Positions 31,009 through 34,578 of a DNA stretch of 34,885 nt are shown here, in pieces; positions within the stretch are counted from its first letter, which is position 1, and each line of letters starts with the position of its first letter. Below the pieces are notes generated by a model. It was not told the origin of the DNA. It did not search any database and worked only from the letters and a program-made list of their open reading frames with translations. The stretch spans positions 1 to 34,885 of IMG/VR virus record IMGVR_UViG_3300044819_000014, one strand, 5' to 3'. Origin of the DNA: a virus. The position numbers and the translations under genes are program-made.

Positions 31009-31409
31009 GCCCTGTGCCGCTTGGCGTCTACATCGCCGCGCCGTTTCCGCTTCGCAACCACGGAACACTCGCCCGTTCTGGCTTATTGTCGATGGGCCTG
31101 ATTTCGACGGCACACTGGCTGGACGTGGAGAAGGAAGAATGGAATGACGAATGGGCGCGTATCGACCTTGCGGACATTGACCGCGCTACGGTCTTTCTGT
31201 TGATCAATCCTCCCGAATGGCGTCAGGAAGGCACGGGGGGCAGGCACGTTGAATTTGGCTATGCCGTAGCTCGTCACAAGGACATCGTGATCTGGGGCGA
31301 GCGAACGAACCTGTTTCACTCGCTCAGCCACATCCAGGTCGCTGGCGATCTCCCATCCGCGATCAACATGGTCAACGATTTGGCGCGAGGCTTGTCACTT
31401 GACGTCTAG
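31005..31409 (+). CDS. Nucleoside 2-deoxyribosyltransferase-like protein
   Basis: The N-terminus VYIAAPFPLRNHG and the segment GGRHVEFGYAVAR (residues 78-90) fit the nucleoside 2-deoxyribosyltransferase-like family: the first forms the substrate pocket, and the glutamate E83 in HVEFG would be the nucleophile. D-IDRATVFLLINPPE in between is also typical. Such enzymes swap bases between deoxynucleosides or hydrolyse modified nucleotides; phages use them in nucleotide salvage or for altered bases. TTG 31005 overlaps the previous stop. Length 134 aa is normal. Confidence 0.7.
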   Translation: MSPVPLGVYIAAPFPLRNHGTLARSGLLSMGLISTAHWLDVEKEEWNDEWARIDLADIDRATVFLLINPPEWRQEGTGGRHVEFGYAVARHKDIVIWGERTNLFHSLSHIQVAGDLPSAINMVNDLARGLSLDV

Positions 31410-31421
31410 CTTTGCTACACT
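31392..31421 (+). promoter_or_regulatory. Promoter reading into the structured RNA segment
   Basis: TTGTCA (31392-31397) and TACACT (31416-31421) are separated by 18 bases. The boxes overlap the end of the deoxyribosyltransferase-like gene. The expected start of transcription (about 31427-31429) falls at the beginning of the first long helix of the RNA-like segment. Confidence 0.55.
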
Positions 31422-31423
31422 CT

Positions 31424-31841
31424 GGGACAGTTGGCTAGGCGGAGGTCATTCCCCGTCAGCCGAAAAGGGTGTCTTCCACCACCCCTGCCGACTGTTCCTC
31501 TTGTTGGAAGATTTCATGGCGTGTGGAAGCGACATGAGAACCATCCTCGCTAGTTTTCTCGTTTCACCCTTCCACCGTCTGACATCGCTGCACGACAACA
31601 GCGTGAGGGTTAGAGGCTTCGTGCCGGAAAGCCTCAAAAGCGGTGGTTTCCACGGGGCAGTCGGACCGTCTGACGGAATACTCCGATCCCGTGCGCTCGT
31701 AGGTGTCACGCGATTCCACGGCACGCGGATACCAGCAGGTAGAGGCGAGTGCGTCATCGTTCGTGGCGTTGTCGGAGAGAGGGAAGCCCTCCGAAACTCA
31801 GGACTCACGGACAGCCACGGGCAGAGTCAGATTAGCCGTGG
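31424..31841 (+). ncRNA. Candidate large structured non-coding RNA
   Basis: This stretch between two genes is full of helices. GGGACAGTTGGC (31424-31435) pairs over 12 positions with GCCGACTGTTCC (31487-31498), enclosing AGGGTG/CACCCCT (31466-31471/31480-31486). Then come GTGGAAG/CTTCCAC (31523-31529/31569-31575) around GAGAA/TTCTC (31536-31540/31556-31560), CGCTG/CAGCG (31586-31590/31599-31603), GAGGCTT/AAGCCTC (31613-31619/31629-31635), TCGGA/TCCGA (31661-31665/31682-31686), CCACG/CGTGG (31716-31720/31762-31766) enclosing GCAC/GTGC, TCGGAG/CTCCGA (31772-31777/31789-31794) and CCACGG/CCGTGG (31815-31820/31836-31841). A promoter lies just before it. An open frame of 155 codons (31399-31866) covers it, but it has no ribosome-binding site, and I recognise no protein in it. 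Size and phage setting recall ornate large RNAs such as GOLLD or ROOL; membership is not claimed. Confidence 0.55.
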
Positions 31842-31862
31842 TGTGCGCGAGATGGAAGCCGA

Positions 31863-32042
31863 GTGAACTGGCTGGTATGGCTGCTGCCGTCTCGGAACCG
31901 CGTCAGCCCGCGCTGGCTCCGTGACCAGGATCGGAAGGGCGACCGGATCGAGTTTCACGGCGTGGTCCCGAAGTGGCCGATACGTAAAATCACGAACGAG
32001 TCTCCGTTATGGAACAAGCACAAGCTCCGCAAGTCGGCGTAG
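31863..32042 (+). CDS. Hypothetical small protein (59 aa)
   Basis: GTG 31863 follows GGAAG at the end of the RNA-like segment. The product is basic with tryptophans and one conserved-looking stretch (DQDRKGDRIEFHGVVPKWPI). It overlaps the next gene by 34 bases. Similar small proteins occur near early genes of other phages as far as I recall; function unknown. Confidence 0.5.
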   Translation: MNWLVWLLPSRNRVSPRWLRDQDRKGDRIEFHGVVPKWPIRKITNESPLWNKHKLRKSA

Positions 32043-33848: not shown

Positions 33849-33975
33849 TGGACTCGGGCTAGGCAACGGGAGAGGCAAACGCGGCCCGCATGCGACCAAG
33901 CCAGTCTTCGACCCATTCCGCCGCGATCCTGCACTGCTGATTGGTTTCTGGCGTGTCGCCTGGGTGGATGCCGGT
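33849..33975. repeat. 127-base direct repeat, internal copy
   Basis: Identical over 127 bases to the last 127 bases of the window (34759-34885). It covers the end of the pentapeptide-repeat gene. Confidence 0.95.
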
Positions 33976-34578
33976 AAACCAGACTTCCGCGAGCCGTGAC
34001 GAGTTCGGCACGAGGCCGCAAAGATCGTTGTAGTTGACGCCGCGAGCGTTCGCCAAGGTTCCCACGAGACACGCGCAGGTGCCTTCGTAGCACGAGCCGT
34101 CCACTTCGCCCGCCTTGAGCTTCGCCAGCAGCGTCGGCACTTCAGACGGCGCTCCGCTCAGGATGCTCCACACGTCATCACGGAAGGGCACAAGGTTCGC
34201 GCCCCTGAGGTCCGCGTCCCTGAGGTCCGCGCCCACGAGGTTCGCGCCCACGAGGTTCGCGCCCCTGAGGTCCGCGCCCACGAGGTTCGCGCCCCTGAGG
34301 TTCGCGCCCCTGAGGTTCGCGCCCACGAGGTCCGCGCCCCTGAGGTTCGCGCCCCTGAGGTTCGCGCCCCCGAGGTTCGCGCCCACGAGGTCCGCGCCCC
34401 TGAGGTTCGCGCCCCTGAGGTTCGCGCCCCCGAGGTTCGCGCCCATGAGGTTCGCGCCCCCGAGGTCCGCGTCCCAGAGGTTCGCGCCCGCTTTTAGTGC
34501 GGCGATCACGGCCTCATGAACCGTTCCCGCTTCACCTTCCCACAGAATCGCGTCAGTCCATCGGTGCAGAATCTTCAT
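33859..34578 (-). CDS. Pentapeptide-repeat protein (239 aa)
   Basis: Reading leftwards, ATG 34578 follows AGGGAGAAGG. The N-terminus ([19 protein letters not shown]) leads into about twenty A-(N/D)-L-x-x repeats at residues 31-130 ([19 protein letters not shown]-type), which form a right-handed quadrilateral beta-helix. A C-terminal domain follows ([20 protein letters not shown], then [18 protein letters not shown], and [10 protein letters not shown]). Some pentapeptide proteins mimic DNA and bind gyrase, but most phage members with this C-terminal domain have no known role. The DNA repeats are 15 bases long and nearly identical. Confidence 0.85.
34193..34492. repeat. 15-base tandem repeat array coding pentapeptides
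   Basis: About 20 copies of a 15-base unit of the type GAGGTTCGCGCCCCT lie head to tail. Copies vary mostly at GTTC/GTCC and at the last three bases, which matches the N/D and R/V/G/M choices in the protein. Confidence 0.9.

Follow-up and report, generated by a model that had tools for sequence, protein, structure and literature searches.

An int-alpA-type RNA in front of a small orphan gene in a phage contig, with a hairpin loop complementary to two leader sites: a probable C4-like antisense lock

INTRODUCTION

Among the target sites of the C4 RNA of phages is one near a ribosome-binding site. In phages P1 and P7, ant of the c4-icd-ant operon is fully repressed only when this antisense RNA is present (PMC8198154), and homing endonuclease genes of T4-type phages (I-TevI, mobE, segB) keep their ribosome-binding sites in hairpins (PMC3014915). 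For the Rfam family int-alpA (RF02996) the literature searched holds no functional study, the name occurring there only as a presence/absence entry, and no earlier notice of the loop pairing described below, which is possible in supplements, for example.

We analysed 34 885 nt of viral DNA (IMG/VR record IMGVR_UViG_3300044819_000014), called the window here; all coordinates refer to it. A sequence-only reading had proposed at 31392-31866 a hairpin-rich non-coding phage RNA of about 420 bases with its own promoter. Covarying relatives support a structured RNA with a promoter, but its size is about 76 bases, and Rfam already has the family.

The window carries P22-type coat, portal, scaffold and head-closure genes of a phage at 7177-20680, and a DUF1064 gene. 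RNA ligase-like and DNA methyltransferase-like frames lie near the left end (163-618 and 856-1512, both on the minus strand). Two frames on opposite strands, 33859-34578 (minus) and 34115-34519 (plus), cover the same bases and both match phrog_31265, the minus frame encoding a pentapeptide-repeat protein. No integrase was found among the window frames scanned, and DNA and protein searches of phages and IMG/VR gave no close relatives of the window genes or the RNA region.

MATERIALS AND METHODS

Relatives. Relatives of the RNA were collected by pattern from IMG/VR and GTDB genomes; such searches skew the sets towards invariant cores. The core letters of the window copy (GGCTAG, CGAAAAGG, CCTGCC) were found by pattern scan in at least 120 IMG/VR contigs, a count that precedes structural filtering, with 149 core sites among the matches listed. 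The 74 sites that passed a stem and flank filter are the only ones that entered the phage-branch tests.

Covariance models. Model R1 was built from 47 relatives and model R2 from 24 phage relatives, the window being excluded from both.

RESULTS AND DISCUSSION

Extent and fold of the RNA

The structured segment and its elements are:

31424-31499, plus strand: int-alpA-type RNA with a three-way junction (RF02996 match, own model R2, fold)
31424-31435 with 31487-31498, plus strand: P1, a closing helix of 12 pairs
31436-31437, plus strand: junction UA, between P1 and P2
within 31438-31461, plus strand: P2
31462-31466, plus strand: junction GAAAA
31467-31471 with 31480-31484, plus strand: P3 stem
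31485-31486, plus strand: junction CU

The 12-pair helix closing around inner hairpins, drawn in the sequence-only reading, is present, and the 76-mer that it bounds has a folding energy of -37.2 kcal/mol, where shuffled sequence gives -24.3 ± 3.2 (z -4.02), none of 200 shuffles being as good. The entire 451 bases reach only z -1.40, with 7 of 100 shuffles equally stable. Further on, where a tight series of perfect stems had been drawn, folding stands at the level of chance (z 0.31 for 31541-31690 and 0.02 for 31691-31840), comparable with coding controls, and the phage and IMG/VR collections searched hold no homologues with covarying pairs over 31541-31866. Because of this difference between the 76-mer and the remainder, the short RNA is supported and the large one is not.

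The many stems that can be drawn by hand might still suggest an ornate phage RNA of about 420 bases (GOLLD, ROOL or a new kind). Such an RNA is so improbable that we reject it: folding behind 31540 equals that of shuffles, relatives have unrelated coding genes in that place, and Rfam gives no match to any large RNA.

Membership of int-alpA

Rfam at curated cut-offs matched nothing in the segment; in E-value mode int-alpA alone stands out, matched over its full length at 31428-31507 with 35.1 bits (E 1.6e-5, or 4.5e-6 on a 181-base region), 0.7 bits short of the curated cut-off of 35.8. In the alignment the junction bases UA, GAAAA and CU all agree with RF02996, and the three stems agree with the fold. 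With E values up to 10 allowed, the C4 covariance model (RF01695) finds nothing in 31300-31960.

Among the 47 relatives (window left out), 95.6% of pairs are kept and both sides have changed in 9 of 15 pairs, the never-varying pairs being mostly imposed by the search pattern and carrying no information. Covariation is 0.596, against 0.12 when shuffled. With filters off, R1 places the window site top in the 35 kb (23.6 bits; runner-up 13.9); with default filters it misses the site, probably because it was built from members with a short P2. R2 returns 31423-31499 as the sole match in the window, at 42 bits and E 1.5e-10, the E-values of both models being rough owing to a shortened calibration. 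Judged by these alignments, the window RNA belongs to int-alpA, with a score under the curated cut-off.

The window copy does not lie between an integrase gene and alpA, its neighbours being a deoxyribosyltransferase-like gene and an orphan, and most relatives are likewise located elsewhere.

Promoter

31392-31421, plus strand: sigma-70-like promoter, -35 TTGTCA at 31392-31397, extended -10 TG.TACACT at 31416-31421

The promoter TTGTCA-N18-TACACT that had been placed at the start of the RNA is present, scores 9/12 and has the extended TG. Its -10 hexamer lies at -17 (17 bases before GGCTAG), a position that matches the family peaks: among 66 phage loci the peak for a -10-like hexamer is at -18 relative to the core, with 37 loci, where shuffled sequences reach no more than 10 at any position, and the bacterial set is enriched at -18/-17. 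Because this placement recurs in phage and bacterial loci, we take the RNA to have its own promoter.

The gene behind the RNA

31534-31866, plus strand: probable regulated gene, 110 aa, assigned by start position; alternative start ATG 31516; stop overlaps the next GTG
31863-32042, plus strand: next operon frame, 59 aa; GTG start overlaps the stop at 31864-31866; codon z 2.46

Of 80 loci, 90% have their start codon 32-44 bases behind the core. ATG 31534, 44 bases behind it and within the family's 5-95% range (32-44), is by position the start that fits the family. The codon bias of 31534-31866 is weak (z 1.87; wrong frames have mean 0.36, sd 1.54), and the 110-codon frame has no family or phage match; its assignment as the target is for these reasons one of position.

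A longer frame of 155 codons, 31399-31866, is open over the same bases, its first 45 codons overlying the RNA and leader. It starts in the stop of the preceding gene, and its stop overlaps the next GTG, as an ordinary gene might, in which case the hairpins would be by-products of its codons. We consider this very improbable, since codon bias (z 1.35 over 31411-31533, 2.35 over the whole frame) is below that of all 27 neighbours scored, and since genomes that lack such a frame yield the RNA and leader all the same, with covarying pairs. Over 31424-31533 an ordinary gene is refuted by the R2 match (rough E 1.5e-10). The open frame, which had been offered as the main rival to an RNA, is instead probably the gene that the RNA regulates, the RNA ending about 35 bases before ATG 31534.

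The third-hairpin loop and its two leader sites

31472-31479, plus strand: P3 loop UCUUCCAC, the pairing (antisense) segment, from fold, complementarity and family covariation
31505-31511, plus strand: site 1, UGGAAGA; 7 Watson-Crick pairs with the P3 loop, duplex about -11 kcal/mol
31523-31529, plus strand: site 2, GUGGAAG; 7 Watson-Crick pairs with the P3 loop; Shine-Dalgarno of ATG 31534
31512-31539, plus strand: leader hairpin with loop GUGGAA (site 2) and ATG 31534 in its 3' arm, from the fold of 31428-31540

Behind nearly every copy of the RNA lie two short stretches complementary to the third-hairpin loop. Over 99 loci the longest loop match in bases 4-22 behind the core averages 5.29, against 3.66 for permuted leaders (z 17.1), and in bases 20-36 it is 4.91 against 3.90 (z 10.6), a permutation that does not fully correct for relatedness, the loops nonetheless differing. 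Controls at these loci (further downstream, upstream, and with the second hairpin, P2) give z 1.2 or less. Permuting leaders among loci retains the general pyrimidine/Shine-Dalgarno match; the excess is therefore locus-specific. In a second, independent set of 37 phage loci with distinct loops, site 1 has z 11.3 and site 2 z 8.7, and the controls are null.

The three places change together in relatives, as at locus L408 (UAUCGCCU/AGGCGAUA/AGGCGAU). Because the median gap between site 2 and the ATG in relatives is 6 bases, site 2 is the Shine-Dalgarno or overlaps it; the stems flanking site 2 are present in relatives too. The window copy has the form of an int-alpA-like leader, a loop complementary to two sites with the second at the Shine-Dalgarno, and its leader is the only place in the 35 kb with two separate 7-base loop matches within 45 bases, other close match pairs being overlapping 8-base matches.

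Where copies share a genome, mostly each pairs better with its own leader: in a comparison with 22 copies, the own leader was better in 16 cases, equal in 6 and worse in 2. In phage contigs with two copies (G060, G067, G076 and G081, loci L415-L422), three of four pairs are private, each loop matching its own leader only.

A phage branch and a portable cassette

The phage sites displayed mostly have a long P2. Every one of the 46 phage records sampled has an RF02996 match at E 0.01 or better, and in only 10 of them does a match exceed the cut-off of that model; the standard cut-off thus mostly misses a phage branch that spans at least 120 viral contigs, counted without structural filtering. 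None of the 46 records shares the neighbourhood of the window (DUF1064), and blastn found no named phage that carries the RNA.

The genes behind the RNA are mutually unrelated across loci. Their products in relatives include HNH, AP2, LAGLIDADG, GIY-YIG and endonuclease VII proteins, DUF6387, a methyltransferase and many unknowns. Genes scanned in the phage branch largely serve replication initiation (O-like, DUF1376/primosomal, DnaD-like), with Bro-N antirepressor, HNH and T5orf172 proteins also present; the frames behind two phage members with a long P2, L197 and L203, look by eye like GIY-YIG nucleases. A search of E. coli gave 196 genomes with the copy from L040 and no match with that from L091; the E. 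coli copies follow the integrase of elements adjoining yicC, and are themselves followed first by a hypothetical and next by an HTH gene. As these neighbourhoods indicate, the RNA cassette is portable, its leader moving between unrelated genes.

Group I introns occur in two of the RNA-carrying phage contigs (L203:7213-7428 and L320:1883-2060), in the latter within about 100 bases of the RNA.

Proposed mode of action

What the sequences themselves show is the fold and family of the RNA, where its promoter lies, and the two sites, which in relatives co-vary with the loop; what follows is a model built on these findings. Transcription from the promoter would begin at about 31424, and the transcript would hold, in order, the 76-base int-alpA-type RNA, a 35-base leader and the small orphan gene. 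The three-way junction would present the 8-base P3 loop, which could pair over 7 bases with either site 1 or site 2, the Shine-Dalgarno at site 2 being predicted to sit in the loop of the small hairpin. Pairing with site 2 should block ribosome entry, and the gene, perhaps with the operon behind it, would be kept shut or self-limited. The RNA might work in this like the C4 RNA of phages P1 and P7, either in cis or, once released, in trans. We put the probability that the RNA is such a C4-like antisense lock, holding back translation of the gene behind it (here the orphan 110-codon frame), at roughly 0.75.

One form that this could take is a switch in cis, a sub-model compatible with the antisense lock, in which the transcript would fold into a pseudoknot between its P3 loop and either site 1 or site 2. 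A signal (phage protein, ligand or ribosome traffic) would choose between them, opening or closing the Shine-Dalgarno. One loop with two competing sites would suit it, as would the private codes of co-resident copies, and the distance from the core to site 1 is nearly fixed, with a G-poor, U/C-rich spacer; fixed spacing suits a pseudoknot in cis. C4, on the other hand, the closest tested analogue, works as an antisense RNA on leader sites, and apart from the junction no ligand-binding core is known, so that we rate the chances of a cis switch at somewhat less than even. The private codes fit action in cis as well as in trans.

With respect to the antisense lock in general, we suggest, more tentatively still, that int-alpA RNAs are a transplantable device with a private loop-target code, by which phages and satellites silence other copies of the cassette in trans and gain superinfection immunity as with C4, and that a phage branch lying largely under the Rfam cut-off guards replication-initiation genes. 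Were action in trans true, this would be a second, independent RNA-based solution to phage immunity beside C4. The co-variation of loop, site 1 and site 2 gives int-alpA a concrete, testable mode of action.

Besides int-alpA, the elements L040, L100 and L129 contain C4 and isrK or c4-a1b1, in separate places, two RNA locks coexisting per element.

Comparison with known systems

With the T4-type homing endonuclease genes the locus shares a leader hairpin that holds the Shine-Dalgarno of a selfish gene, whereas no RNA module upstream, with a loop to match, is described for those genes (PMC3014915). The likeness to C4 of P1 and P7 (RF01695, with its a1/b1 targets) lies in a leader-derived RNA with a three-way junction and a loop that has complementary sites in its own operon; the two differ in that C4 and int-alpA have no homology of sequence or junction and form separate Rfam families that share no clan. 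Compared with int-alpA (RF02996) itself, the window copy is not placed between int and alpA, which is the source of the family name and not a structural criterion, and, like the phage branch, it has a longer P2 and closes with GGCUAG/CCUGCC. It agrees with that family in its three-way junction with UA/GAAAA/CU and its hairpin lengths, in its distance of 32-44 bases from the start codon, and in having a promoter just upstream.
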